Origin: Chryseobacterium sp. S0630
GTDB taxonomy: Bacteria > Bacteroidota > Bacteroidia > Flavobacteriales > Weeksellaceae
DNA: 64,000 nt
Assembly (NCBI RefSeq): GCF_024158915.1
Contig: NZ_JAMZGF010000003.1
Coordinates: 1-64,000, forward strand
Direction: 5' to 3'
The notes beneath the pieces were generated by a model. It was not told the DNA's origin. It worked only from the letters and a program-made list of their open reading frames with translations, and ran no database searches. The number at the start of each line of letters is the position of its first letter. Position 1 is the first letter of the stretch. Both the position numbers and the translations under genes were made by a program. Shown in pieces: positions 42,516-62,053 of this stretch.

Positions 42516-43952
42516 ATGGAAGATGAAATAATAAACTCTCAGGAAACCGGTGAAATCAAACCAACAAGAGATACATTACTTGTTTTGAACACTGATACCA
42601 ATCAGGTAGAAATGGTAAAAGGAATTGATCAGGAAGGCAATCTTCAAAAGGTTTCTCCACTAGAAAAAAATGAAAATGACCAATTGATCAAAGTTGATAA
42701 GCATGGAGATATTTTCTCTAATTTCTTTTCTAATTTCTACCGGCAGCTTAAAAATCCCACGTATTTCAATTTTTTCAAAGTATCAGAATATGATGCTGTC
42801 AATACCGCCAAGGATCTTCAAAAATATGTTGATCAGGCATCCCCTGAAGAAAAAGAAAGGCTGAAAGACTACGAAGTTTTACCTCAACACCACAATAATC
42901 CCAAAAATCAAAATACAATGAACAACAACACAGACAATCAGGAATATCGTTTTCAGCCTGAACAGATCGACTGGAAAACGATGGAAAAATTCGGACTTAA
43001 TCAGGAGAAGCTTGAAAAAATGGATGCTATGGATTCATTACTCAGAGGTTTTAAAACAAATACATTGATTCCCATTACCATTAATTTAGGAACAGCAGTC
43101 AGCAAAATGGATGTCCGGTTATCCCTTCAAACAGGAGATACAGGACAGGTTGCCGTCCATTTGCATGGTATCCGCAAAGAGCCTAATCTCAATATGAAAT
43201 TCCTCGGGCATGAGTTCAGTGATCAGGACAAAAAGAACCTGAAGGAAACCGGAAATATGGGCAGGGTAGTAAATCTTGTCAATCCTAAAACCGATGAAAT
43301 CATTCCATCAGTCATCAGCCGAGACAGGCTTACCAATGAGCTTGTTGCGTATCGAGCGGAGTATATGAAAGTTCCTGATGAAATCAAAGGAATAAAACTT
43401 GATGAACATCAGAAACAAACTTTACTGGAAGGAGGACCCTTGTATCTTGAAGGCATGACTTCCAAAAAAGGAGAGTCTTTCGACGCCACCGTACAATTCA
43501 ATGCAGATAAGCGGTATGTAGAATTTTTGTTTGGCAATAACCAAGCGCCACAACAAAGCCAACAGCCATCACAACTTCCGGCTCAAGAAGCTCCCAAAGT
43601 ATTCAGAGGAAAAGAACTGGATGATTCACAGTATGAAAAATTTAAAGCCGGGCAAACCATTTATATTGACGGTCTTACCGATGCTAAAGGTAAAGCCTAT
43701 CAAGGCTATATTACCTTCAACAAACAAACTTCCAAAACCGACTTTTCATTCACTCATCCTAATAAGCTCAAAGAAGGGGCGAAACCTACAGAAGATCATA
43801 AAACTCAAACTGCGGTTAACACCGATGGTAAAACCAATGAAGCTACTAAAAATGTGAAGGAGCCTTTAGAATCAAAACAGCAGCAGCCTGCCCATAAGCA
43901 ACAAGAAGATCAGCAAAAAAAGGTTAGAAAACCAAGAAGACAAAAACTATAA
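42516..43952 (+). CDS. DUF3945/DUF4099-type protein of Bacteroidota conjugative elements
   Basis: A 478-aa hydrophilic protein. The middle (about 145-330) matches the DUF4099/DUF3945 style, with EQIDWKTMEKFGLNQEKLEK, LIPITINLGTAVSKMDVRLS and IKLDEHQKQTLLEGGPLYLEG. A second, shorter copy of the last motif follows (KELDDSQYEKFKAGQTIYIDG, about 367-387). The tail is Gln/Lys-rich and ends in a basic KVRKPRRQKL, fitting nucleic-acid binding. This family lies directly upstream of topB in many Bacteroidota ICEs; its function in transfer is not known. Confidence 0.82.
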   Translation: MEDEIINSQETGEIKPTRDTLLVLNTDTNQVEMVKGIDQEGNLQKVSPLEKNENDQLIKVDKHGDIFSNFFSNFYRQLKNPTYFNFFKVSEYDAVNTAKDLQKYVDQASPEEKERLKDYEVLPQHHNNPKNQNTMNNNTDNQEYRFQPEQIDWKTMEKFGLNQEKLEKMDAMDSLLRGFKTNTLIPITINLGTAVSKMDVRLSLQTGDTGQVAVHLHGIRKEPNLNMKFLGHEFSDQDKKNLKETGNMGRVVNLVNPKTDEIIPSVISRDRLTNELVAYRAEYMKVPDEIKGIKLDEHQKQTLLEGGPLYLEGMTSKKGESFDATVQFNADKRYVEFLFGNNQAPQQSQQPSQLPAQEAPKVFRGKELDDSQYEKFKAGQTIYIDGLTDAKGKAYQGYITFNKQTSKTDFSFTHPNKLKEGAKPTEDHKTQTAVNTDGKTNEATKNVKEPLESKQQQPAHKQQEDQQKKVRKPRRQKL

Positions 43953-43972
43953 TCAACATCTAAATCCGTCAT

Positions 43973-46060
43973 ATGAAAGCAATCATCGCAGAAAAGCCGA
44001 GCGTTGCCAGGGAAATTGCACAGTTGTTAGGTGCTCATGAAAAAAAAGAGGGGTACTTATCCGGTAACGGATATTGTGTCACCTGGGCATTGGGACATCT
44101 GATCGCATTAGGAATGCCGGAAGATTACGGTATAAGGGGCTTTAACAAAGCCTCTTTGCCTATCTTTCCTAAACCATTTATTCTGACTCCCAAAAAACTA
44201 AAGAAAGAAAAAGGCTATGAGCCTGATCCTTCGGCTTTAAAACAACTCCATATTATAAAGCAAGTCATCAATCAATGCAGCAGTATCATTGTCGCCACAG
44301 ATGCAGGAAGAGAAGGAGAGCTCATCTTCCGTTATATTTATCACTACCTACAATGCAATAAGCCTTTTGAAAGGCTCTGGATCAGTTCACTTACCGAAAA
44401 AGCAATACAGGACGGTTTTAAAAACCTTCAACCAGGTGATGCTTTTGATGGTTTGTATCAAGCTGCTAAAGCCAGAAGCGAAGCAGACTGGCTGGTGGGA
44501 ATCAATGCTACCCAGGCATTAACCATCGCAGAAAATCAAGATCTCTACTCATTGGGCAGAGTACAGACACCAACCCTAGCTTTAATCTGTCACCGGTTTT
44601 TTCAGCATCAAAACTTCATTAAGCAAAAATACTTTCAAATCCAGCTGAGTCACAGAAAAGAATATACAGATTTCACCAGTCTTTCACTATTGCAGTGGGA
44701 AGAAAAAAAGCAGGCAGAACACATCCAAAAATTCATAGAACGGGAGGGAAGAGCAGTTGTCGACGATGTATCCATTACAACAGTTCAGGAACAATCCCCG
44801 TTACTTTTCGATCTCACAGAATTACAGAAAGAAGCCAACAGAAATCTTGGCCTTTCTGCCAATGAGGTTTTACAAACTGCCCAAAGCTTGTATGAAAAAA
44901 AATTCATTACCTATCCCAGAACCGGCAGCAAATATATTCCTGAAGATTTATGGGCAGAGATCCCAGAACTGGTCAGAATCCTCAATATATCAAACCTATT
45001 CAAAACAGCTATATCTACTTTAAAATTCGGAAACTTCAACAAGAGAATCGTTAATGATGTAAAAGTAACAGATCATCACGGTTTACTCATCACTACGAAG
45101 GTTCCATCCGCACTTACAGCTACTGAAAAAGCTATCTATGATATGATTGCTTACCGTTTATTGGAGTCATTATCCCATACCTGTACAAAACAAGTCACCC
45201 AGATCCAGATAAAAGTATATCATTATGAATTCCAGGTCACAGGATCAAAAATACTCAACAAAGGCTGGCGAGCCATCAAAGGAATTCTATCTGACAAAGG
45301 AGATCCCACCACTACTAACCAAACCCTTACTGAACTCCCGGAACTCAAAATCGGAGATGAACTGAAGATCTCAAAAACAGAATTACTGGAAAAAGTAACG
45401 CAACCTCCCAAGCTTTATACAGAAGCGGATCTTTTATCAGCCATGGAAAACGGAGGAAGTTCGATTGAAAACAAAGAAGAAAAGCAGGTACTATCCAATA
45501 TCGGCATCGGAACCCCAGCCACCAGAGCTTCTATTATTGAAACCCTAATCAGCAGAAACTATATCATAAGGAAAAGCAAAACCCTATATCCTACAGATAA
45601 AGGCTTACAAGTTTACAACCTTGTCAAAGACAAAAAAATAGCTAATGTCCAAATGACCGCGGAATGGGAAATAGCACTGGATAGAATTGAAAAAGGTCAA
45701 CTGAACAGAACCCAATTTATCAATGATATCCAAGACTATACGGCAGAAATCACCAGCGAACTTTTATTACTCAATATTCCACAAGAGAATCCCCCACAAC
45801 TCAACTGCCCCAAATGCCAACAACATACTCTTATTATCAAAGACAAAATCATAAAATGCCCTGATGAAAAATGTAATTGGATTCTCTTCAGAATGATATG
45901 CGGAGTACAACTCAGTATTACAGATATAGCTTTACTATTAACTCAGAACAAAACATCATTAATCAAAAACATGAAAAGCAAAAACGGAAAAAAGTTTAAT
46001 GCTTATATAGTTTTAAAAGAAGATTCTAGTACAGTATTTGACTTTGGAAAGGATAACTAA
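43973..46060 (+). CDS. topB: DNA topoisomerase III (mobile-element type)
   Basis: Type IA topoisomerase of 695 aa that passes single strands. The Toprim domain has Glu7 (IIAEKPSVA) and the ATDAGREGELIFRY acids (Asp110, Glu114). The nucleophile is Tyr314 in FITYPRTGSKYI, preceded by YSLGRVQTPTLALI. After the core is a short Cys motif (CPKCQQH...CPDEKC, about 610-640), a zinc finger remnant. TopB of this kind is carried by Bacteroidota conjugative transposons. It follows the DUF3945 gene by 20 nt, so the two are co-transcribed. Confidence 0.94.
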   Translation: MKAIIAEKPSVAREIAQLLGAHEKKEGYLSGNGYCVTWALGHLIALGMPEDYGIRGFNKASLPIFPKPFILTPKKLKKEKGYEPDPSALKQLHIIKQVINQCSSIIVATDAGREGELIFRYIYHYLQCNKPFERLWISSLTEKAIQDGFKNLQPGDAFDGLYQAAKARSEADWLVGINATQALTIAENQDLYSLGRVQTPTLALICHRFFQHQNFIKQKYFQIQLSHRKEYTDFTSLSLLQWEEKKQAEHIQKFIEREGRAVVDDVSITTVQEQSPLLFDLTELQKEANRNLGLSANEVLQTAQSLYEKKFITYPRTGSKYIPEDLWAEIPELVRILNISNLFKTAISTLKFGNFNKRIVNDVKVTDHHGLLITTKVPSALTATEKAIYDMIAYRLLESLSHTCTKQVTQIQIKVYHYEFQVTGSKILNKGWRAIKGILSDKGDPTTTNQTLTELPELKIGDELKISKTELLEKVTQPPKLYTEADLLSAMENGGSSIENKEEKQVLSNIGIGTPATRASIIETLISRNYIIRKSKTLYPTDKGLQVYNLVKDKKIANVQMTAEWEIALDRIEKGQLNRTQFINDIQDYTAEITSELLLLNIPQENPPQLNCPKCQQHTLIIKDKIIKCPDEKCNWILFRMICGVQLSITDIALLLTQNKTSLIKNMKSKNGKKFNAYIVLKEDSSTVFDFGKDN

Positions 46061-47474: not shown

Positions 47475-48650
47475 TTAATGATGTTTTACTTTTTTTCTGA
47501 GCAACATATAAATGGTATGTAATGAAAGTTTGGTTACATCCATATTCCATAAAGGTTGACTTTTATTAACAACAACCCATATTTTGCTGTGAATATCAAA
47601 TTGATGAATAAAGCAATAGTAAACCCATTTGGAAATGGAAATACGGGTATTTTTTCCTTTGTTTCGAACTAAACAATAAAGGGAGTAGGTAGATTCGGTA
47701 TTTGCTGACATTATTTGAGAAAGAATCTGTTCTTTGAGGAAAAGTGTTCTTCCATTAGAAGTCCATCCTGCCAATCGTTTGACACGTCCTTTACTAGAGA
47801 TAGCAAAACGGTTATCAAAGCCGGGAATGATTTTCCAGTGTTCTCCGGGAAGATCTTTTATGGACAAGTTCAGACATGCGGGAGGATTATTTTGATCAAT
47901 AGAGGGGCTTCCTAATTTTTCCCACAGAGCAGTATTAAGCAACCGGTATGAAAGGCTTTTATTTTCAGTTATTATAAAGTCCTTCTTTGTTGGGGTATAA
48001 GATTTCAAAAACCATAGGTATCCACCTGCTGTTAAAAATTGTTTATTGATAACATCCATAATACTTTCCGGAGCAATACCCAGCTTTTTTTCTGCCATAT
48101 ACATGCTTTCAAAATCAGATAGTAGTTCCCCTTCAATACTATACTGGCTGACAGCCTGGCTGTAAATGACTTTTCGGTTTCTTATTCTGTTTTTTTCAAA
48201 CATATTGAGCCGCATTTCATGGGACGAAATTTTCTGTAAATTATGGTAATGTATATTAAGTTTGTTCTCATCCTTAGTGCTGATAAGAATGGTGCGGTCA
48301 TAGTAATCAAATTTTTCTATAAAATGATAATAGACAAGACGTATTATTGATTTCCTGTACTTCTTACCCTCTGAGGATAAAGAGCAATGTACACTATAGT
48401 TATAATTTTGTAGATAATTGTTGGTATGTTTTACAAAAATCAGTTTCATAATCAGTTCCGGCCTTTTCCATTCTTTACCACTTGGGAGAGATACAAAACG
48501 TCCTATGCTTTTTACACGCCCGTAATTAGAAATCATATAATTTTCATAATTCTCAATAGATTTCCATTCTTCACCTGGAAGATTTTTTAAAGAAGTATTA
48601 TATAAAACTTCTTTTACATATTGGTCTTCAAATTCAGGAGGCAGTTTCAT
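47475..48650 (-). CDS. NUMOD4-domain protein with duplicated modules, homing-endonuclease-like
   Basis: A 391-aa protein built from NUMOD modules that bind DNA in homing endonucleases. The first NUMOD4 is at about 24-50 (LPGEEWKSIENYENYMISNYG), a NUMOD1-like repeat at about 168-215 (VSQYSIEGELLSDFESMYMA), and a second NUMOD4 at about 265-295 (LPGEHWKIIPGFDNRFAISS). Between them the place of an HNH nuclease reads STKDENKLNIHYHNLQ, recalling the HNH pattern HxDxNKxNNxxxNL but lacking the first catalytic His. It is therefore either a DNA-binding protein or a nuclease with reduced activity. It is monocistronic. Confidence 0.75.
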   Translation of the reverse strand: MKLPPEFEDQYVKEVLYNTSLKNLPGEEWKSIENYENYMISNYGRVKSIGRFVSLPSGKEWKRPELIMKLIFVKHTNNYLQNYNYSVHCSLSSEGKKYRKSIIRLVYYHFIEKFDYYDRTILISTKDENKLNIHYHNLQKISSHEMRLNMFEKNRIRNRKVIYSQAVSQYSIEGELLSDFESMYMAEKKLGIAPESIMDVINKQFLTAGGYLWFLKSYTPTKKDFIITENKSLSYRLLNTALWEKLGSPSIDQNNPPACLNLSIKDLPGEHWKIIPGFDNRFAISSKGRVKRLAGWTSNGRTLFLKEQILSQIMSANTESTYSLYCLVRNKGKNTRISISKWVYYCFIHQFDIHSKIWVVVNKSQPLWNMDVTKLSLHTIYMLLRKKVKHH

Positions 48651-49204: not shown

Positions 49205-49657
49205 TTAATTATTGTTTAAACCAAATGAATTGGTTCCCAGTTTATTTTTGAAAAGGCGTTCTTTTTTGATGGCTTCGTCCGCAGTTATCGTCTTCGGAAG
49301 AAGCATTAAAATTGAAAATTGAAAGTGGTTACCATGTAAAGGGTCAGAATCAAGAAGTTCTTTTAACATCTTATTATCTCCATGACCATTCGTTAGCACA
49401 TATGCTGACCAACGGGCCCAAATTCCATTTTCACCGTATGCTGATCCTACATAAAGCTTGCCGGTTTGGGTATCATTGATAAGGTACACGCCCTTTGTTA
49501 TGGAAAGTACCTTTTTCCAGTCGCTGTATTGATTGGTTACTATTTCTTTCAGTTCGCTAAAACTTAGAATAAAATCAAAATAATCCGTAAACTGCTTATA
49601 ATGAAGTCCTGGTTTGATTTCTATGACTTCCATTTCATTTTTTATCCATTGCTCCAC
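49205..49657 (-). CDS. GIY-YIG nuclease, C-terminal part of a split gene
   Basis: A 150-aa frame carrying a GIY-YIG catalytic module: GVYLINDTQTGKLYVGSAYG (about 56-75) holds the GVY/YVG tyrosines, IWARWSAY (about 79-86) supplies the Arg, and a Glu follows in KKERLFKN (about 131-138). It can begin only at a GTG (49657) lying inside the preceding frame. Family members are normally one chain with an N-terminal region like that encoded by 49642-49989, so a frameshift or small deletion has separated them. It may still be made by coupled re-initiation. Confidence 0.65.
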   Translation of the reverse strand: MEQWIKNEMEVIEIKPGLHYKQFTDYFDFILSFSELKEIVTNQYSDWKKVLSITKGVYLINDTQTGKLYVGSAYGENGIWARWSAYVLTNGHGDNKMLKELLDSDPLHGNHFQFSILMLLPKTITADEAIKKERLFKNKLGTNSFGLNNN

Positions 49658-51987: not shown

Positions 51988-53364
51988 GTGTCAAAATATA
52001 AATTTATAGACCTATTTGCAGGATTAGGAGGGTTTCATTTAGCCTTAGAGGGATTAGGTCATGAATGCGTTTTCGCAAGTGAATTACAACCTGATCTTCA
52101 AAAACTTTATTCAGAAAACTATCCTGGAACACCAATCTTCGGTGATATTACTAAAATTTCGGTAGATAATATCCCGAAGCACGATATTCTCTGCGGAGGA
52201 TTTCCTTGTCAGCCCTTTTCTCAAGCGGGCAAAAGATTAGGTTTTACAGAAGATCGGGGAAATTTATTTAATAATATTATGGAAATTTTAGAATTTCATA
52301 AACCTAAATATGTTTTTTTAGAGAACGTTCAAAATTTAAAAAATCATGATGAGGGAAATACTTGGAAAGTAATAGAAGAAAGATTATCTGCGTTGTATGA
52401 TGTTAAAGAAGCAATTCTATCACCCCATCAGTTTGGAATACCGCAACATAGATTTAGAATCTATATTGTAGGAAAATTAAAAGAGTTCTATGAAGATAAA
52501 CCTTTAGCTAACTTTGAATTTCCACTACCAGAGAAACACGAATGTAATATTAAAACCATAATTGATGAATCTGCATTAGATTTCATGCACTTACGAAATG
52601 ATACAAGAAATCATCTTTCTATTTGGCAAGAATTTTTGAATGAATTGTACGATAATGGAGGTGAATTACCAACTTTTCCTATTTGGGCAATGGAATTTGG
52701 GGCAGATTATGATTTTGAGGACATTGCACCTGCACATCAAAAATTAAAGGAATTAAAAAATAAAAAAGGTAAATTAGGTAAAAAAATAGTCGGTTCTACG
52801 ATAAAAGAATGTCTCTCACATTTACCAATTTATGCCATTACGGATAAAACTAAAACATTTCCATCTTGGAAAATTCAATTTATTAAAAGAAACCGTGAGT
52901 TTTACAATACACACAAATTGTGGTTAGATAAGTGGATTCCAAAAATTGTGGATTTTGAAAATAGTCATCAGAAATTTGAATGGAATTGTGGGGCCGAAGA
53001 AAATCCAACAATTTATAATAAAATTATTCAATTTAGACCTTCTGGTATAAGAGTAAAAAAACCAACATATTCTCCAGCATTAGTGCTAACAACAACACAG
53101 ATTCCTATTTTTCCATGGATAAAACTACCTGAGGAATCTTTGGATGGAAATGAGGGGTTATATGGAAGATATATGACTAAAGATGAAGCCGCAAAGTTGC
53201 AAGGAATGGATAAATTAAAAAAATATCCAGAAACTGTTCCTTCCGCATTTAAAGCATTTGGGAATGCTGTTAATGTGGATCTTGTTAAATTAATTGCCGA
53301 AAAACTACTAAACCATGAATCAAATAGAGAAAGTATCCATCGCGCTGCAGCCCAGTGTTTATAA
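51988..53364 (+). CDS. DNA (cytosine-5) methyltransferase of a restriction-type operon
   Basis: A 458-aa m5C methyltransferase that marks host DNA with AdoMet. Motif I is FIDLFAGLGGFHLAL (6-20), motif IV GGFPCQPFSQAG with nucleophile Cys74, motif VI ENV (112-114), and motif VIII QHRFRIYIVG (153-162). Then comes an unusually long target-recognition region (about 165-385), and motifs IX-X near the end (GRYMTKDEAAKLQGM, FKAFGNAVNVDL). The start is GTG 51988. Its last 50 nt overlap the next gene, a sign of coupling. The target site cannot be read from sequence. Confidence 0.95.
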   Translation: MSKYKFIDLFAGLGGFHLALEGLGHECVFASELQPDLQKLYSENYPGTPIFGDITKISVDNIPKHDILCGGFPCQPFSQAGKRLGFTEDRGNLFNNIMEILEFHKPKYVFLENVQNLKNHDEGNTWKVIEERLSALYDVKEAILSPHQFGIPQHRFRIYIVGKLKEFYEDKPLANFEFPLPEKHECNIKTIIDESALDFMHLRNDTRNHLSIWQEFLNELYDNGGELPTFPIWAMEFGADYDFEDIAPAHQKLKELKNKKGKLGKKIVGSTIKECLSHLPIYAITDKTKTFPSWKIQFIKRNREFYNTHKLWLDKWIPKIVDFENSHQKFEWNCGAEENPTIYNKIIQFRPSGIRVKKPTYSPALVLTTTQIPIFPWIKLPEESLDGNEGLYGRYMTKDEAAKLQGMDKLKKYPETVPSAFKAFGNAVNVDLVKLIAEKLLNHESNRESIHRAAAQCL

Positions 53365-54847
53365 TACTTTTAGGGCTCTCAACAACACTGTTGCACTAAC
53401 TTTAAGTGAATATGTTGATAATTCTGTTCAATCCTTTTTGGATAATAAAGATGTTATTTTAAGCATTTATCCAGATTTTATATTTGAAGTTAATATCGAG
53501 GTTGATCAGAAATCAAATCAGATAATTATTCGAGATAATGCTGCAGGCATTGATTTTGTAAATTATCAAAGAGCATTTGAACCAGCAAATATTCCTTTAG
53601 ACAATACCAAATTAAATGAATTTGGAATGGGAATGAAAACAGCTTCAATTTGGTTAGCAGATAAATGGAGTGTACGAACCAAAGCTTTAGGCGAAAAAGT
53701 AGAAAGATTTACTGAATTTGATTTGCATAAAGTTATTAAAGAAAATAAAGAAGAATTAATTGTAGTTGAGACAGTTAAAGAGCCTGAATTACATTATACT
53801 GAGATTGTTTTATCAAACCTCTCCCATAATGCGCCCTCTCCGTATCAAATGGATAAAGTAAGGCGACACTTATCAAGTATTTACAGAGTATTCTTGCGAA
53901 CAAATGAAATTACTATTGTGGTTAATGGTGAAAAATTAGTTGCTCCTAACTATGAAATATTAGATGTTCCATTTCACAGCTCTTCAAGTAATAATAATAC
54001 TTTGTGGAAAAAAGAGATTACCTTTAGTCTTGGTAAGTATCAAGCAAAAGGGTTTATAGCAATCTTGAAGACCATACAAAATAATGCAAATGGATTAGTT
54101 CTTCTTCGAAGAGGACGTGTCATTGTGGGAGGGGATGAAGATCGTTTTTTTCCAAATTCAATTTTTGGATCACCAGGTAATTTTCGATATAAAAGATTGT
54201 TTGGAGAAATTGAATTAAGCGGATTTGATGTTACATTTAATAAAAATGGATTTACAGATGAAGAAAATTTAAATGCTTTTATTGATGCTTTACGCGAAGA
54301 ACTACGCGACCCTGATTTCAATCTTCTAAGCCAAGCTGATAATTATCGTGTAAAGACTAAAGAGGAAAATTCGAAAATTGCTGAAAAAATCATTAAAACT
54401 CAGCAAAAAGAAGTTGATAAAGAACCGTTAACAGATAAAATAAAAAAAGTAGAAAATGCCTCAAGTAATAGAGAAAATATTGCTATAGAAGAAGAAAAAA
54501 TTTCTAATGCAGATACTTTAGGCTCGGTAGAGGATTATTTTGATTATGATGATATTTCCTATAAGTTTCAAGTAGATCTTATAAACGAAGATGAGTCAGA
54601 TGCCCTTTACGCAGTAAAACAAGAAGACTTAGAAGTAGAAGGAAAAATGATTTCTTGTTTAATCTGCAAAATAAATCTTGCACATCCTTTTTTTAATAGA
54701 TTCGAGCAGTTTAGAAAGGCAGGTGATTATCAACCGATAATAGAAATTTTTAAATCTTTTGCAATTGCTGAGTTTCATGCTACAAAAAAGAAGATGCAAT
54801 ATCCTTCTGAATTAAGGACTTTTTTTAATAGTTATATTGTTCAATAA
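53315..54847 (+). CDS. MORC/MutL-like GHKL ATPase of the defence operon
   Basis: A 510-aa protein with a GHKL ATPase fold: motif N Glu32/Asn36 (SEYVDNSVQ), motif I DNAAGI (Asp74, Gly78), motif II NEFGMGMKTA (101-110), followed by a MutL-type S5 domain. The C-terminal 170 residues are charged and unlike known domains. Iyer, Abhiman and Aravind (2008) described bacterial MORC-like GHKL ATPases in operons with methyltransferases, Z1 helicases and PD-(D/E)XK nucleases, which is this order. Likely role: an ATP-driven clamp that senses or loads onto unmethylated invading DNA. Confidence 0.9.
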   Translation: MNQIEKVSIALQPSVYNTFRALNNTVALTLSEYVDNSVQSFLDNKDVILSIYPDFIFEVNIEVDQKSNQIIIRDNAAGIDFVNYQRAFEPANIPLDNTKLNEFGMGMKTASIWLADKWSVRTKALGEKVERFTEFDLHKVIKENKEELIVVETVKEPELHYTEIVLSNLSHNAPSPYQMDKVRRHLSSIYRVFLRTNEITIVVNGEKLVAPNYEILDVPFHSSSSNNNTLWKKEITFSLGKYQAKGFIAILKTIQNNANGLVLLRRGRVIVGGDEDRFFPNSIFGSPGNFRYKRLFGEIELSGFDVTFNKNGFTDEENLNAFIDALREELRDPDFNLLSQADNYRVKTKEENSKIAEKIIKTQQKEVDKEPLTDKIKKVENASSNRENIAIEEEKISNADTLGSVEDYFDYDDISYKFQVDLINEDESDALYAVKQEDLEVEGKMISCLICKINLAHPFFNRFEQFRKAGDYQPIIEIFKSFAIAEFHATKKKMQYPSELRTFFNSYIVQ

Positions 54848-54859
54848 TTAAATCAATGT

Positions 54860-57100
54860 ATGGAAATAAGAATACTTCCCTCAAATAATTCTCAGCAAGA
54901 ATTCAGACCTGAAATTGGAGTTAAAACAAATGATTTATTCTCACGATTTAGTTCTTTTTTAGATGAAGATGAGTTAGATTCATTACTTAGTGAAACCAAT
55001 CATATCTTATCACATTGTACTAATCCTAAATTGCTAATTGAACAAGATGTAACACATTTGACTGTTGGTTATGTACAAAGTGGAAAAACAATGTCTTTCA
55101 CCTCATTAACAGCTTTAGCTGCGGATAATGGGTATCGAATTATTATTTATTTGGCGGGGACCAAAAATAATTTGTTAAACCAGACTACAAAACGACTAAC
55201 AAAAGATTTAATTTCTGATAGTTCGTTAAATAATGCGTATAAAGTATTTGAAAATCCAACTGAGTCAAAGATTCAAGAAATGAGAAATAAGTTACGGTTA
55301 TCATCAAAGCCAACCTTACTTATTACAATTTTAAAACATTACGACCACATCAACAGATTAGCTAATATATTTAGATCACTGATTATTAAAAATGAATTAG
55401 GGAAGCAAGGAGTTTTAATTATTGATGATGAAGCTGACCAAGCCTCTTTAAATGGCTTTGCTTATATCAATGGTAAAAATGCGAATACATCAAGTGAATG
55501 GGATGAAGAAACTGACAATAAAGAATCAAGTACTTATGCAAGTATTATCAATTTGAAAGCAGCAATTCCAAATCACTCTTATGTTCAATACACAGCAACT
55601 CCTCAAGGACCATTATTAATAAGTATAATTGATTTGCTTTCTCCAAAAAGTCATACTGTCCTTACTCCTGGCAAAAAATATACTGGTGGTAAAACATATT
55701 TTAAAGATTTTCCTGATTTGGTAATTAATATTCCAGAAGAAGAGGTTTATCACTACAGAGCAAATCCTTTAAGTGATGTACCCAATTCCTTGAAAGAGTC
55801 TTTACAAGTTTATATTTTAAGTGTCGCTTTAGTAACAAATTACTGGAATAAAGTTAAATTTTTGTCAATGATGATACATGCGGATAGACAAAAAGATGTG
55901 AGCAGACTATTTCATGGTTGGGTAAGCGAATTGATTGAGAAATGGACAACAATTTTGAATTTGGAGATTGGAGATCTAGGCAGAATTGATTTAGATAGAG
56001 AATTTAAAGAAGTATATGAAAGAGAAGCTATAAAATTTTATAGTTCTCAAGATGATGTGCCTTCCTTCGATGAAATTAAACCACTAATTGCAGATGCTAT
56101 TAATGATACACAAATCAATCTAATTATTAGCGATGTGGATGCAACAAATACAATTGATTGGGAAAGTTCTTCATCTCATATATTAGTAGGAGCTGATATG
56201 TTAAATCGTGGTTTTACAGTAGAAAATCTTGCAATAACATATATGCCTAGATATACAAAGAGCAAATCTAATGCTGATACTATACAGCAGAGATGTAGAT
56301 TTTTTGGCTACAAACAAAAATATTTGAAATCGTGTAGAGTGTACCTTCCATCTAGTTCAATAGTAGAATATGTTGACTATCTTGAACATGAAGAAGAAAT
56401 GAGAACTTGGTTAAAAAATAATAATAGCCTTGAAAACATTGAAAGACAATTAATGCTTGCAGAGAAACTTAATGTAACAAGAAAAAATATTCTGCCATAT
56501 AACATTGTTCAAACAAAAATGAAAGGGTGGCATTCTATGAATGCATTGAATTCGATCGAGTCTAATATGAATGTTGTTAGCTCGTTTTTAGATAATAATC
56601 CTTTTGAATTATTTGAACCTCAATACAATACTATTGATAGAAATCATAAAATCGCAACTGTTCCTGTTGAAAATGCAATAGATTTTCTAACAAAATTCAA
56701 GTTTGGTAACTTTGCGGATACAGCAAGAAAGCAAGCTACCATTAGGTATTTACAATATTTATCATCAGAATCGGCTTTGAAAATTTCAAATGTACATTTT
56801 ATCCAGATGGCATATGAAAGTAATTCTCGACTTCGTAATTTTGATCCTAATACACTAAAAATAGATCAATTATTTACTGGGCGATCAACTGCAGGTAGTG
56901 AGGTATATCCTGGAGATCGAGAGATTAAGTGTGAGGACAGTATCTGTATTCAGTTACATAAGGTTGAATTAAGGTCAAATCAAATCAATAGGCTTAATAG
57001 GAAAGTTATTTATACTATAGCAGTTTACTACCCTGAAGATTTTGCAACCAGGTATACCAGCATCGAACCTGAAGATTTTAATTTCGAAGACGAAGATTAG
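54860..57100 (+). CDS. Z1-domain superfamily II helicase-like ATPase
   Basis: A 746-aa protein. Walker A is GYVQSGKT (70-77), Walker B IIDDEADQ (187-194), motif III-like YVQYTATPQG (241-250). The C-terminal helicase half contains GADMLNRGFTVENLAITYMP and TIQQRCRFFGY. The Z1 domain is a known marker of MORC-linked restriction systems, where it may move along or remodel DNA for the nuclease. It lies 12 nt after the GHKL gene and 1 nt before the DUF4420 gene. Confidence 0.92.
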   Translation: MEIRILPSNNSQQEFRPEIGVKTNDLFSRFSSFLDEDELDSLLSETNHILSHCTNPKLLIEQDVTHLTVGYVQSGKTMSFTSLTALAADNGYRIIIYLAGTKNNLLNQTTKRLTKDLISDSSLNNAYKVFENPTESKIQEMRNKLRLSSKPTLLITILKHYDHINRLANIFRSLIIKNELGKQGVLIIDDEADQASLNGFAYINGKNANTSSEWDEETDNKESSTYASIINLKAAIPNHSYVQYTATPQGPLLISIIDLLSPKSHTVLTPGKKYTGGKTYFKDFPDLVINIPEEEVYHYRANPLSDVPNSLKESLQVYILSVALVTNYWNKVKFLSMMIHADRQKDVSRLFHGWVSELIEKWTTILNLEIGDLGRIDLDREFKEVYEREAIKFYSSQDDVPSFDEIKPLIADAINDTQINLIISDVDATNTIDWESSSSHILVGADMLNRGFTVENLAITYMPRYTKSKSNADTIQQRCRFFGYKQKYLKSCRVYLPSSSIVEYVDYLEHEEEMRTWLKNNNSLENIERQLMLAEKLNVTRKNILPYNIVQTKMKGWHSMNALNSIESNMNVVSSFLDNNPFELFEPQYNTIDRNHKIATVPVENAIDFLTKFKFGNFADTARKQATIRYLQYLSSESALKISNVHFIQMAYESNSRLRNFDPNTLKIDQLFTGRSTAGSEVYPGDREIKCEDSICIQLHKVELRSNQINRLNRKVIYTIAVYYPEDFATRYTSIEPEDFNFEDED

Positions 57101-57101
57101 C

Positions 57102-58091
57102 ATGGAAAACTCAGGGTATAAAAAATTCTTAGAACTGCAACAAAAAGATGTTGACAGCGCCAATGGATACATTTCTGTGGAATCAGTTCCTTTTTCTGAT
57201 TATCATAAAATAGGAGTTTCACCAGATGGCTTTCCTTTGTTTTTTGTAAAATGTGATAATACAGTTTCTTCAATTGATATTAACTTAGAACTTATTTCAG
57301 TTTTATTTTCGCAAGATTGTAGTATTAGAGAAAAGGAATTAGATTCAGAAGATATCTATACAATTGTTTTATTAAAAACTTTAAATAGGGATCTCCAGCA
57401 GTATTTTACTGATGTATTTTCAATAATACTCCAACAACTTGTAGTAATTCCAACAGAACGAGAACTCCATAAGGAAATTAGAAAGGTTATTGACTTATTT
57501 AGTAGTATAAGTAAACCTCCAGTTAAATCAATTCAAGGATTATGGTCAGAACTTTTAATAATAGACTTTGCTAAAAATCCGGAGTATTTGATTTCATCTT
57601 GGCATGTTTTACCTTCCGATAAATACGATTTTAATGATGGAAAAGACAAATTAGAAATTAAATCAACTTCAAAACAAAATAGAGTACATCGATTTTCTAT
57701 TGAACAATTAAATGGAAATGTTGGTTCGGAATTAATTGTTGCTTCTTTATTTGTATTAGAAACAGGTTTAGGAAAAAGTATTCTTAATTTAAGAGATAGT
57801 ATTATTTCAAAAATTAAGAATATAGATACTCATCTTAAGCTTAATGAGATTATCTATAAGACAATTGGTAATCAGTACGAAAAACTTGGTGACATCTTTT
57901 TCGATTACCAGATGGCTATTGATTCATTAATGTTTTATAACGCTAAAAATATTCCTAATATATTATCAAGCAATATTCCATCTGAACTATCAAATATTTC
58001 TTTTGACTGTGACTTGACTGGTGTTTCTGAAATTAAAACGGGGGAAAACCAATTTGAACAAAATGTATTATTTTTAGAGTTAGGGCTATGA
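57102..58091 (+). CDS. DUF4420 PD-(D/E)XK nuclease of the defence operon
   Basis: A 329-aa protein of the PD-(D/E)XK motif (DUF4420) family. The active-site set is Glu150 (GLWSEL), Asp176 (KYDFNDG), Glu185 and Lys187 (LEIKSTSKQ), the standard Mg2+-binding arrangement. ATG 57102 is chosen, one base after the Z1 stop; the longer frame overlaps Z1 by 59 nt without support. This should be the cutting component of the restriction system. Its stop overlaps the next gene by 4 nt. Confidence 0.9.
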   Translation: MENSGYKKFLELQQKDVDSANGYISVESVPFSDYHKIGVSPDGFPLFFVKCDNTVSSIDINLELISVLFSQDCSIREKELDSEDIYTIVLLKTLNRDLQQYFTDVFSIILQQLVVIPTERELHKEIRKVIDLFSSISKPPVKSIQGLWSELLIIDFAKNPEYLISSWHVLPSDKYDFNDGKDKLEIKSTSKQNRVHRFSIEQLNGNVGSELIVASLFVLETGLGKSILNLRDSIISKIKNIDTHLKLNEIIYKTIGNQYEKLGDIFFDYQMAIDSLMFYNAKNIPNILSSNIPSELSNISFDCDLTGVSEIKTGENQFEQNVLFLELGL

Positions 58092-59137
58092 GTGACCATA
58101 AACATATAGAAAAAATTAAACCTGAGATATTACTTTTACTTGCTAGGGAAGTTTTAGACCAAAGTGTTGAATTTAAATATATTTCAGGGATACAACCATT
58201 CTTTATGTCATTTAATAATGAGGAATTCTTCGTTTACATAAAAAATATTTCTAGTGCCTATTTTACAGACAGAGATCAAACAACTCGTGCGCAGTTACCT
58301 ATCAAAAAGGAATTTGAAGTTGCAAAAAATTCTGACAAACCTTTTATATTTTTAGGTTATGATGGAGCCAATGATGTTTATGTATGTTGGAATTACCATA
58401 TAGTAAAACAAAGATTAAATATTAGTAAAAGCGTTTCATTTTATTCAAGAACATTCTTTCAATCCGAAGTTAAAGAAGGTGAATTCAATAGAAGACAGCT
58501 TAAAAATGGTGATATACCAGTATTGTTCAAGCGTTCTAATTTAATTGAGTTTTTTAAAAATGTGCATTCTTTCTTTCCAGATGATAATCTTGATGATCTA
58601 GAAGTCAAAATTGATTTACAAATTGAGGATCTTGAAGAGAAATTTTCAGAATTTTTAAGAGACGTTAAAAATTTGTCAAATGAATTAAACGTATACTATT
58701 GTAACGTATTAAATGGTCCTGTAACTAATATCATTGCAAAATACTTTTATAAAGATATTACTAGTTTTTATCAAATTATACGTAGGTCTGAACTAAATAG
58801 ATTGCAAATTGATTTGACAAGTACTCCGGAATACAAAAATCTAAATGAAATAGAGAGGAGCATATATATTTCTGTCCTTACTAGCTACATTGAATTTTTT
58901 TCTAATATGATGGAAAATAAAAGTGATTGTCAAAAACAAGTGGCTGATGTTGATTTTAAATCAGATAAAAAATTAGAATGTATAACAGATTTTGATTTAT
59001 TAACTAAACTAAAACCATACGTTGAATCAAACAGATTACTGTCTGCAGCTCAAATACTAGGTGAACATTATAAAAATCAGTATCCTAGTATGCAATTTAA
59101 GGATTGGATGGAATTGATAAATGAAATTAAAATATAA
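58088..59137 (+). CDS. Fifth protein of the Z1/MORC operon, unknown function
   Basis: A 349-aa protein with a likely two-domain plan. The N-terminal 130 residues (FFVYIKNISSAYFTDRDQTT, FIFLGYDGANDVYVCWN, VSFYSRTFFQ) look like a beta-rich module that I have seen in association with restriction enzymes but cannot name. After about 150 the protein is helical, with coiled-coil propensity (about 170-200). No nuclease triad is visible. Its 4-nt overlap with the DUF4420 gene makes it part of the same operon; target recognition or specificity is a plausible role. Confidence 0.75.
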   Translation: MSDHKHIEKIKPEILLLLAREVLDQSVEFKYISGIQPFFMSFNNEEFFVYIKNISSAYFTDRDQTTRAQLPIKKEFEVAKNSDKPFIFLGYDGANDVYVCWNYHIVKQRLNISKSVSFYSRTFFQSEVKEGEFNRRQLKNGDIPVLFKRSNLIEFFKNVHSFFPDDNLDDLEVKIDLQIEDLEEKFSEFLRDVKNLSNELNVYYCNVLNGPVTNIIAKYFYKDITSFYQIIRRSELNRLQIDLTSTPEYKNLNEIERSIYISVLTSYIEFFSNMMENKSDCQKQVADVDFKSDKKLECITDFDLLTKLKPYVESNRLLSAAQILGEHYKNQYPSMQFKDWMELINEIKI

Positions 59138-60054: not shown

Positions 60055-61614
60055 TTATAACCAACCTAATTTAGTTAAGTTATCTGTGTACGGAATTAAA
60101 CTTAATTGAATTATACTTTCTAAATCAAATTTTTCTTTAATTAGACTTCTTACATCATCGTCTGAAGGCGCAGTAGCAAAAAATTCTATTTCACCAATTT
60201 CTTCTAATTTATTAAGCAATGAATTGTAATCTCGTATAGTAATTAGGTCATCATAATTATTATTTTGAATTAATGTTATAGTTCTATTTTCATAGTTCCA
60301 TACAATATTTTCAAGAGTATTTATAATAGCATTTTCAGAATCTTCCTCGCAGAGCCATCGCTCTGGGCTGTAATCTGAATTAATATTCTGTAATATTTTT
60401 TGATAAAAGTCTTGATCTTTACCTTTTATTTTTTCAATAGAAATTAACCCAAGTTTAATATTTATAGTATTTCTTATCCTACCTCTTCCTATTCCAGACG
60501 ATTGGAAAAATTTATCTCCAAAATCTAAATTTTTTAATTTTTCTATATAGAAATTAAAATCAATTTTACTGATATTATTTGATTCGGATTTTAAAATTGA
60601 TTTTAAAACATCAAAAAGAGCTTGAATTCCTACCGTTTTTTTAATGTATGAGTTAGTGTTACTATTTACCCATAAAATCTCATTTATACTTTTAAAATAA
60701 CTTACAATAATATCGTATATTATTTGATCTTCGATATTCAAGAATTGTTTTCTTAACGGTGAATTATCTTTTATGTTAACTAACATTGATCTGTTTCTTC
60801 CATTTAAAAAACTTTTTTGCTGCATTAAAATACGATCTCTTTTAGGATTTGCACTTATTAATGAAGTAATTCCATCAACAATTGTTGCAGTGGAAACCAC
60901 CCAGTCTTTATTTTTTTCTCCATTAAACAAACTGTCCACATTCATTGGAGCTACTTTTATGTGTCTGTAGAATGCAGAATTTGTTTTGTCTGTATTTAAT
61001 TTTCGAGATAAAAAAACAGCAAATTTTTCTGGTGTCCAAGATTTTTCATTCTCATCATCGACGTTGTATCCAAATTGTTCCAACGCTAGGCTTCGATCAA
61101 CTTTTTTCTGATTTGAATTAATCGTTGCAAACAAAAATGCTTGATAAGAATTAGGGAGGTCAAAATACACAGAACATAAAAGGTCTATTTTTTCCAATTT
61201 GCTATTATTGGTTACATATCTGAAAGAGTTTAAACGATGTTGTCCATCTATGATTGCAGCTAATTTCTGTTTTGTTGGAATAATAAGTTTAAATCCATCC
61301 TTATCACTCTCTATACGCCACCTATCATCTTTGTCATAAACAATTTGACCATTTTCATTATAGTTTGCAGATAATATAATCGAATTTGGAAAAGCCATTT
61401 CTACAGATTCTATATAACTAGCAATTTCTTTTAATCTTTTTTGATCTTGGGGGCGCTGACTTCCTTGAACATTTCCACTTCCATCTATATATTTTAAAGG
61501 CTCAGAAAAGCAAATGTCTAATAATTTTGCAGCGTTTATTGAAATTACAAAAAAATTTCCTAGGGGTTGGCTAACTTTTAAAGCTCTTAGTTCTAAAAAA
61601 TTATTATTTTCCAT
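60055..61614 (-). CDS. DGQHR-domain protein (DndB-related)
   Basis: A 519-aa protein from ATG 61614 (GTG 61641 would add 9 residues). The signature IIDGQHRLNSFRY (about 121-133) defines the DGQHR domain, best known from DndB, the regulator of phosphorothioate DNA modification, and found in other defence loci. Nearby SANYNENGQIVYD and FLFATINSNQKKVD fit the ParB/Srx-like fold of this family, which can bind or hydrolyse nucleotides. No dndA, dndC, dndD or dndE is present, so this is not a Dnd system. It follows the four-TM gene with a 10-nt overlap. Confidence 0.85.
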   Translation of the reverse strand: MENNNFLELRALKVSQPLGNFFVISINAAKLLDICFSEPLKYIDGSGNVQGSQRPQDQKRLKEIASYIESVEMAFPNSIILSANYNENGQIVYDKDDRWRIESDKDGFKLIIPTKQKLAAIIDGQHRLNSFRYVTNNSKLEKIDLLCSVYFDLPNSYQAFLFATINSNQKKVDRSLALEQFGYNVDDENEKSWTPEKFAVFLSRKLNTDKTNSAFYRHIKVAPMNVDSLFNGEKNKDWVVSTATIVDGITSLISANPKRDRILMQQKSFLNGRNRSMLVNIKDNSPLRKQFLNIEDQIIYDIIVSYFKSINEILWVNSNTNSYIKKTVGIQALFDVLKSILKSESNNISKIDFNFYIEKLKNLDFGDKFFQSSGIGRGRIRNTINIKLGLISIEKIKGKDQDFYQKILQNINSDYSPERWLCEEDSENAIINTLENIVWNYENRTITLIQNNNYDDLITIRDYNSLLNKLEEIGEIEFFATAPSDDDVRSLIKEKFDLESIIQLSLIPYTDNLTKLGWL

Positions 61615-62053
61615 TTGAGAGAGGTTTTGATGTATCACCACCTAAGGAAGAGGTTGGATCAAAATTTGAATTATTATAGTTTACTAACCACCAAGCAGTA
61701 AATGAGAAAATTATTCCAACAAAAATTTGCCAAGGAATATTTTGTAAATATTTTCCTTTTACATTATAATACATTACCTGGCAAGCCATAAATAGTACAA
61801 TCGTATTTAAAATGCATGTTATTAAAATCACAGGCTTACGATATGTTACTTGATTATCAATGATTTTCATAATATAATCTAAACTTGATGTTACTGCAAT
61901 AGCAATAAAGTAGGTGATTAAATTTTGATTGAGATTTTTTACTAGATTTTGATCATTGTACATAATATCTAAGGTCAAAGGGATCAAAACTCCAATTGCC
62001 GCTAGAAACATTATTGCGAAAATGAAATATAATAGTATAGTTATAAATTTCAT
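61604..62053 (-). CDS. Four-helix membrane protein paired with the DGQHR gene
   Basis: A 149-aa integral membrane protein with four hydrophobic helices (FITILLYFIFAIMFLAAIGV at the start; LITYFIAIAVTS; VILITCILNTIVLFMACQVM; QIFVGIIFSFTAWWL) and a short polar tail. No known family is recognised. Overlap with the DGQHR gene start makes the two a unit: a membrane effector or anchor with a nucleotide-sensing partner is a testable idea seen in other defence systems. Confidence 0.7.
   Translation of the reverse strand: MKFITILLYFIFAIMFLAAIGVLIPLTLDIMYNDQNLVKNLNQNLITYFIAIAVTSSLDYIMKIIDNQVTYRKPVILITCILNTIVLFMACQVMYYNVKGKYLQNIPWQIFVGIIFSFTAWWLVNYNNSNFDPTSSLGGDTSKPLSNGK

Follow-up and report, generated by a model that had tools for sequence, protein, structure and literature searches.

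A methyltransferase-MORC-Z1-DUF4420-MTaX1 operon in Chryseobacterium sp. S0630, a probable anti-virus system with an MTaX1 protein in fifth place

The five-gene operon

The window analysed here is the opening 64,000 bases of contig NZ_JAMZGF010000003.1 of Chryseobacterium sp. S0630, whose genome measures 5.38 Mb. Between positions 51988 and 59137, its list of open reading frames (ORFs) contains five genes on the + strand, in the order 5-methylcytosine (m5C) DNA methyltransferase, MORC-type GHKL ATPase, DEAD-Z1 protein, DUF4420 nuclease and MTaX1 protein. All five are free of internal stop codons and their ends overlap or nearly touch, with the coordinates given in an earlier note that was made from the sequence alone. 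Judged by sequence comparison, the five genes very probably constitute an anti-virus system, one in which the cell's own DNA receives a mark and DNA without the mark is cut. More specifically, we read the operon as a multi-subunit restriction-modification system that depends on ATP and includes an additional reader of the target or of its modification, and we give this reading an even chance of being right. The Pfam scan covered ten window proteins, and every Pfam match quoted below for the operon lies above the curated cut-off.

Gene 1 (51988..53364, +) has a GTG start and encodes a DNA methyltransferase of 458 amino acids (PF00145, E 1.4e-72), which matches the PADLOC Type II methyltransferase family PDLC03272 (4.8e-84) and in which the motifs PCQ, ENV and GNAV were all located. 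The genome's one other C5-methylase match sits on contig 47. Between motif VIII, which by our assumed motif numbering corresponds to QHRFR, and the C-terminal motifs lies a long target-recognition stretch (approximately residues 171-405; 52498..53202, +). The very long recognition region to which the earlier note had drawn attention is therefore real, but it is common to the relatives rather than peculiar to this protein: when the window is compared with each of the other seven systems with an MTaX1 gene, identity over this region is 56-81%, and the methyltransferase measures 448-479 amino acids across all eight. Gene 1 also matches the PADLOC models DruM and DrmMII (among the 25 of its 63 families that are listed). 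DISARM and Druantia were rejected as candidates, as no further Drm or Dru component is listed for the other nine window proteins scanned with PADLOC.

Gene 2 (53315..54847, +; 510 amino acids; PF13589 or HATPase_c_3, 7.9e-13) contains EYVDN and DNAAGI. The MORC S5-domain motif GhXhhpXXRhl, applied as a regular expression (Iyer et al., 2008), is present as GLVLLRRGRVI at residues 260-270 (54092..54124, +), and it occurs in all 36 systems of our survey that have a GHKL gene. Gene 3 (54860..57100, +; 746 amino acids) carries QSGKT at residues 73-77, DDEAD at residues 189-193 and a Z1 domain at residues 310-524 (PF10593, 7.5e-33). Gene 4 (57102..58091, +; PF14390, 2.1e-27), which lies in a reading frame open from 57042, has the nuclease residues E150, D176 and E185-x-K187 when numbered from 57102, and this E-D-ExK set is kept in 37 of 37 aligned DUF4420 rows. 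Its start is very probably the ATG at 57102 rather than the TTG at 57042, since the alignment with relatives begins there. A search by sequence against solved structures for genes 2-5 returned nothing credible.

The end of gene 1 and the start of gene 2 share 50 bases, and the overlap has the same length in the related loci L012 and L052. A single base separates the gene 3 stop from the likely ATG of gene 4, and gene 5 (58088..59137, +; 349 amino acids) starts within an ATGA overlap, its ATG lying over the gene 4 stop.

Distribution and inheritance of the proposed restriction arm

When genome contigs were scanned with gene 3, five loci emerged, which belong to Flavobacterium piscis, a Porphyromonadaceae metagenome-assembled genome and three Treponema. 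With the Pfam model, Z1 was found in 18/395 genomes of the phylum, while an alignment of short-type Z1 proteins found it in 10/395 genomes of the window's order and 16/195 genomes of the family of the L054 Treponema. Among phage records, gene 3 matched five unannotated faecal records at no more than 31% identity. We compared 46 Z1 loci, including the window and two plasmid records. The order methyltransferase-MORC-Z1-DUF4420-MTaX1 recurs in eight of them across two phyla (in Bacteroidota and in the genus Treponema), which argues that the five-gene arrangement is not due to chance; the orthologues of gene 5 lie in L012, L052-L056 and L090. A gene for an AIPR protein follows DUF4420 in a further 16 loci (confirmed by Pfam in 10/10 scanned). 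The remaining 22 have neither MTaX1 nor AIPR and comprise 11 loci of a short-Z1 branch and 11 with other arrangements; a contig end is near in five of these negative loci (L043, L048, L091, L102 and L104), and the L091 methyltransferase is cut off.

The Z1 tree (44 rows) omits L036 and L089, whose frames are shorter than 600 amino acids, and retains the flagged long branches L107, L088, L049 and L046. It places the eight systems with MTaX1 in one clade (support 100/100), which lies within the short-Z1 branch; the AIPR systems form a second clade (15 rows, 97/97), which belongs to the long-Z1 branch. Trees of the GHKL and DUF4420 proteins, built by a quick method for 19 short-branch loci, likewise hold the eight together with support of 98 and 96. 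As all three trees keep them together, the genes of the proposed arm (genes 2-4, along with gene 5) travel as a block. On these trees, MTaX1 was probably gained once.

The MTaX1 protein

Gene 5 had been called undescribed in the earlier note. However, it matches the Pfam family MTaX1 (PF20296, 9e-25) with 87.8 bits against a cut-off of 25, over profile positions 2-111 of 111, and a role for this domain has already been proposed in print: MTaX1, present in several restriction-modification systems, is described in the available part of that paper as potentially involved in discriminating modified DNA (PMC10853773). The domain occupies residues 46-156 (58223..58555, +). It is followed by an extra, fast-changing and mostly helical insert, placed by alignment and a low-confidence model at approximately residues 166-291 (58583..58960, +), and by a conserved C-terminal part (approximately residues 292-349; 58961..59134, +), delimited by alignment and helical in both structure models described below. 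Reference 24 of PMC10853773, the source given there for MTaX1, is presumably Krishnan et al. 2020. The insert is present in the window and L012 alone among seven aligned rows; the two proteins are 72% identical over residues 1-165 and 26% identical over the 126 amino acids of the insert, and the other relatives measure 233-248 amino acids.

MTaX1 was detected in 5/395 genomes of the phylum Bacteroidota, the window's own among them, and BLAST found no match to the window's five genes in the approximately 20-kb stretches around the other four. Gene 5 was matched in 2/296 genomes of the family, counting the window's own; it had no match in viral contigs, plasmids or phages, and no MTaX1-HNH relative was confirmed in viral contigs.

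Elsewhere, MTaX1 is followed within the same protein by HNH (L013 and L016) or by GmrSD_N (L014), each time beside a methyltransferase gene, and L015 contains a broken copy. Plasmids provide further cases, two of them beside methyltransferases (H38 and H39) and one between DUF499 and DUF1156 genes (H43). The L013 protein matched 98 plasmid records, and among the 20 listed, 6 match in the MTaX1 part. Varied nucleases therefore use MTaX1 as an N-terminal partner, which suggests a reader domain borrowed by different nucleases, and gene 5 appears to correspond to the reading half of enzymes of this type. The operon resembles these loci in that MTaX1 adjoins a DNA methyltransferase gene. It differs in that its nuclease and motor are separate proteins, whereas theirs has the nuclease fused to MTaX1, and in that its methyltransferase is of the m5C type, whereas the partner is of the N4/N6 type in L013, L014 and L015 and of the Eco57I type in L016.

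On a Hymenobacter plasmid (L089:4859-13084), a MORC-Z1 operon with split GHKL and Z1 frames is adjoined, on the opposite strand, by a HEPN gene and by a DUF262 gene that is separate from the operon and includes MTaX1.

Structure prediction of the 349-residue protein, a check that the earlier note had proposed, pointed weakly to a nuclease-like fold without the catalytic acids. The AlphaFold models of gene 5 (pLDDT 66, pTM 0.47) and of its L053 relative (pLDDT 83, pTM 0.65) both gave structure matches led by RecU, Hjc, I-Ssp6803I or SPARDA nuclease chains, which we take to be PD-(D/E)XK folds. The best Z scores were 7.9 for gene 5 (1y1o_A, root-mean-square deviation 3.4, 126 residues aligned) and 7.7 for L053 (2fco_A, 3.5, 127 aligned), values below 8 that may mean a mere common arrangement; in the L053 list, the first rows that we took for other folds appear at Z 5.0 or less. 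Across a 15-row MTaX1 alignment, from which the broken L015 copy was left out, every row has P37, N53, Q69 and G90, while Y50, R62 and R67 are each kept in 14 rows. No conserved acid was found in these rows on the presumed strands 2 and 3, where the catalytic D and (D/E)xK would lie, with strands assigned from the models rather than by superposition. The stretch expected to carry the nuclease acids reads Y-I-x-N, and the sole near-constant acid, D142 (14/15 rows), lies outside the core strands. The models thus weakly suggest a fold resembling that of PD-(D/E)XK nucleases and devoid of the catalytic acids.

The same matches could be taken to mean that gene 5 is a second active PD-(D/E)XK nuclease, giving the arm two cutting subunits, since nucleases of this fold are the best matches of both models. 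We consider this very unlikely: as judged by topology, no acid is kept on the relevant strands in the 15 rows, and elsewhere MTaX1 carries a second nuclease domain fused to it.

Comparison with known systems

The earlier note had assigned the gene set to the MORC/Z1 systems predicted by Iyer, Abhiman and Aravind, and this assignment holds, with both the MORC and the E-D-ExK motifs present. The third operon type of that paper, as given in its available part, consists of a MORC ATPase, a superfamily II (SFII) helicase with Z1, a nuclease of the restriction endonuclease (RE) fold with E-D-ExK and a cytosine methylase, and is mobile and scattered (Iyer et al., 2008; PMC2292703). The window has the same four parts. 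Gene 3 differs from the published Z1 motif DThhQXuRhFG at two defined positions, reading DTIQQRCRFFG, in which the second h and the u deviate; its score for Pfam Z1 is above the cut-off. No MTaX1 gene is named in the available text on this operon type, while a figure legend mentions uncharacterised X1-X3 domains.

Comparison with MZA (mzaABCDE) was made through NCBIfam models and the text of Miller 2022. The operon shares a MORC-like ATPase, Z1 and a PD-(D/E)XK protein both with MZA and with the putative Type II system in the available text of Miller 2022 (PMC9523054), whose extra gene encodes AIPR; a cytosine methyltransferase is a further feature in common with the latter. These systems have AIPR (MzaE in MZA) where the window has MTaX1, and Pfam found no AIPR in the ten window proteins scanned. 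Their Z1 protein is about 925 amino acids long, compared with the short type of about 730-746 amino acids in systems with MTaX1. The window proteins score 19.1, 135.4 and 18.2 bits against MzaB, MzaC and MzaD, far below the cut-offs of 850, 1500 and 420 bits, while the AIPR-type locus L037, at 429.3, 685.8 and 132.6 bits, comes much nearer to MZA and still remains under them.

Four-gene systems annotated as dcm, ATP-binding, Z1 and PD-(D/E)XK have the same core genes in the same order without MTaX1; one is on Rathayibacter plasmid NZ_CP047182.1, a bare four-gene set by NCBI annotation. Genes for Z1, Dcm and DUF4420 proteins have also been described on an island of Corynebacterium (PMC5379612, available part). 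CglI and NgoAVII resemble the operon in combining an m5C methyltransferase with a separate DEAD-Z1 motor subunit, but their nuclease is a PLD-B3 protein, and the available accounts include no MORC, DUF4420 or MTaX1 component (PMC4267653; PMC5737866). Pfam found no PLD or B3 domain in the window's operon. The kind of system is therefore already known. A literature search that left most subscription papers outside its reach turned up no description of MTaX1 in a Z1 operon or in the fifth place of one.

Proposed mechanism and its alternatives

In the reading we prefer, the m5C methyltransferase would mark the host's own sites, and genes 2-5 would form a restriction arm. The MTaX1 protein would inspect target DNA for a missing or foreign mark, serving as a DNA reader with a nuclease-like fold and no catalytic acids, and its C-terminal helices would dock it to the arm. 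The MORC ATPase would then close on or loop the DNA, the DEAD-Z1 motor would move along it and the DUF4420 nuclease would cut it. According to the available accounts, the DEAD-Z1 protein of CglI and NgoAVII acts as an ATPase solely when the R protein is present and the target DNA is unmethylated, and CglI has been proposed to translocate and then cut on collision (PMC4267653; PMC5737866). MORC ATPases have been proposed, in the part of the paper available, to loop the DNA that separates a recognition site from the cleavage site (Iyer et al., 2008; PMC2292703). If these precedents apply here, the arm would recognise, clamp, translocate and cut.

The earlier note had suggested that the fifth protein may be the specificity or sensor subunit. 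The domain fusions described above favour DNA reading, and we have moderate confidence that gene 5 is the inspecting part within the MTaX1 clade. Several observations weigh against giving it a wider role, or against the preferred reading as a whole. The fold match is weak, as Foldseek returned no hit for either model at E below 0.001 (none below 4e-3). Eleven short-Z1 relatives (L048, L049, L088 and L091-L098) have neither MTaX1 nor AIPR, so the arm evidently manages without MTaX1, and these relatives must recognise DNA otherwise, if they restrict at all. In three of the eleven, a different gene on the same strand directly follows DUF4420: a protein of 683 amino acids with a weak nSTAND3 match in L093, one of 463 amino acids with no Pfam match at E 0.001 in L094, and one of 452 amino acids with AspBHI_N and Mrr_cat in L095 (L095:6217-7575, -). 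The arms of L094 and L095 are nearly the same, yet these two genes look unrelated, and the fifth place looks like a slot for varied accessories. Finally, the methyltransferase tree (18 rows, L091 omitted) rejects the eight MTaX1 systems as one clade (approximately unbiased (AU) test, p 1.35e-6); gene 5 is therefore not bound to a single methyltransferase.

By sequence comparison, methyltransferases have indeed moved between restriction arms that are far apart. Those of L056 and L096 are 83% identical, while their GHKL, Z1 and DUF4420 proteins share 27, 25 and 16% identity; the corresponding values are 80% against 24, 24 and 17% for L090 and L097, and 93% against 35, 26 and 19% for L092 and L097. 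The reverse holds for L092 and L093, whose arm proteins are 67, 82 and 70% identical (in the same order) and whose methyltransferases are just 38% identical. In all six loci, the methyltransferase gene abuts or overlaps the ATPase gene. The L092 methyltransferase frame (L092:6062-7339, +) begins after motif I and may be broken or have a misread start, so it is L056/L096 and L090/L097 that carry the argument for exchange. A hypervariable recognition region was sought in the close arms of L092 and L093, and just dips in conservation were found, in the C-terminal half of GHKL and where the Z1 and DUF4420 proteins begin. For the four Treponema systems, in clades that had been named after earlier trees were seen, the methyltransferase tree conflicts with the Z1 and GHKL trees (AU p 0.004, 0.0003 and 0.001; p 0.054 for DUF4420), and the gene 5 tree has support of 42/17, with an AU p of 0.28 for the other grouping, so that gene 5 may follow either the arm or the methyltransferase there.

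As closely similar methyltransferases stand beside arms with and without MTaX1, and the eleven relatives manage without it, gene 5 looks less like a family-wide specificity subunit than like a reader added within a single lineage. The main alternative is that both arms owe their specificity to the methyltransferase and its long recognition region, in the manner of Type I systems, and that gene 5 is an accessory (a regulator, a sensor of modified phage DNA or a back-up effector) in a variable fifth place. AIPR and the other genes found after DUF4420, including the AspBHI_N/Mrr_cat protein, speak for it, as do the exchange between the distant arms of L056 and L096 and the dissimilar methyltransferases beside the close arms of L092 and L093. 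It supposes, however, a methyltransferase that acts within the restriction complex; the exchanged methyltransferases may share one target that each arm recognises by itself; and the pairs involving L092 carry less weight than the other two. In view of L093-L095, we regard this alternative as a serious possibility, if one we would not bet on, and hold the preferred reading at no better than even.

A further reading can also be advanced. Methyltransferases exchanged between arms (MORC, DEAD-Z1 and DUF4420) that are about a quarter identical would mean that an arm is either directed to its target by the methyltransferase or senses methylation state in a generic way. On such a plug-in arm, MTaX1 would be a dead nuclease fold added once, in one lineage, as an extra check on (modified) DNA, in the slot that others fill with AIPR or other effectors, and the m5C system would be more like Type I than Type II. 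We offer this tentatively and think it rather doubtful.

Genomic setting

The G+C content of the operon is 30.2%, compared with 33.1% for the window. A Bacteroidetes-type promoter pattern was looked for upstream of gene 1 and not found, the stretch 3′ of gene 5 folds weakly, and no tRNA genes were found within the 64-kb window. About 6 kb upstream of the operon, at 42516-46060 (+), a DUF3945/DUF4099 gene is followed by a topoisomerase gene, a pair that we take to be of the sort met in Bacteroidetes conjugative elements. This neighbourhood suggests an integrative element, of which the defence operon may be cargo. It also gives some footing to a non-defensive explanation, in which the operon would serve the regulation or maintenance of a mobile element and its methyltransferase would be epigenetic. 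Against this, all eight MTaX1 systems keep intact motifs in both nuclease and motor, and NCBIfam labels the related MZA genes anti-phage; we consider a non-defensive role very unlikely.

Just upstream of the operon lie a gene for a NUMOD4 protein (47475-48650, -) and a weak GIY-YIG match (49205-49657, -), possibly homing-endonuclease-like genes. Downstream, at 60055-61641 (-), the genome's sole DGQHR match scores above the NCBIfam cut-off for 'DNA phosphorothioation-associated DGQHR protein 1'; DndC had no match anywhere in the genome, hence this protein is an orphan of the phosphorothioation-associated kind.

Three related loci have neighbours of their own. In L053, a Schlafen AlbA_2 protein gene (L053:5493-7118, +) overlaps the start of the methyltransferase gene of the MTaX1 system by 4 bases. 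A second methyltransferase gene overlapping an AAA_21/AAA_15 ATPase gene (L093:2932-5809, +) lies directly upstream of the L093 four-gene system, and genes for a DUF2357/PDDEXK_7 protein and an AAA protein (L048:2717-6482, -) are divergent from that of L048.

Significance

Prokaryotic MORCs have been proposed, in the part of the paper available, as the source of the eukaryotic MORC silencing ATPases (Iyer et al., 2008; PMC2292703). We found no test in the literature of how a MORC ATPase acts within a restriction system. The operon, together with those of its relatives in which gene 5 is absent or AIPR stands in its place, constitutes a natural set of gene removals and swaps. Since MTaX1 is here separate from any nuclease, its possible role in reading DNA would be easy to assay, and the exchange of methyltransferases makes it testable whether the restriction arm has a specificity of its own.

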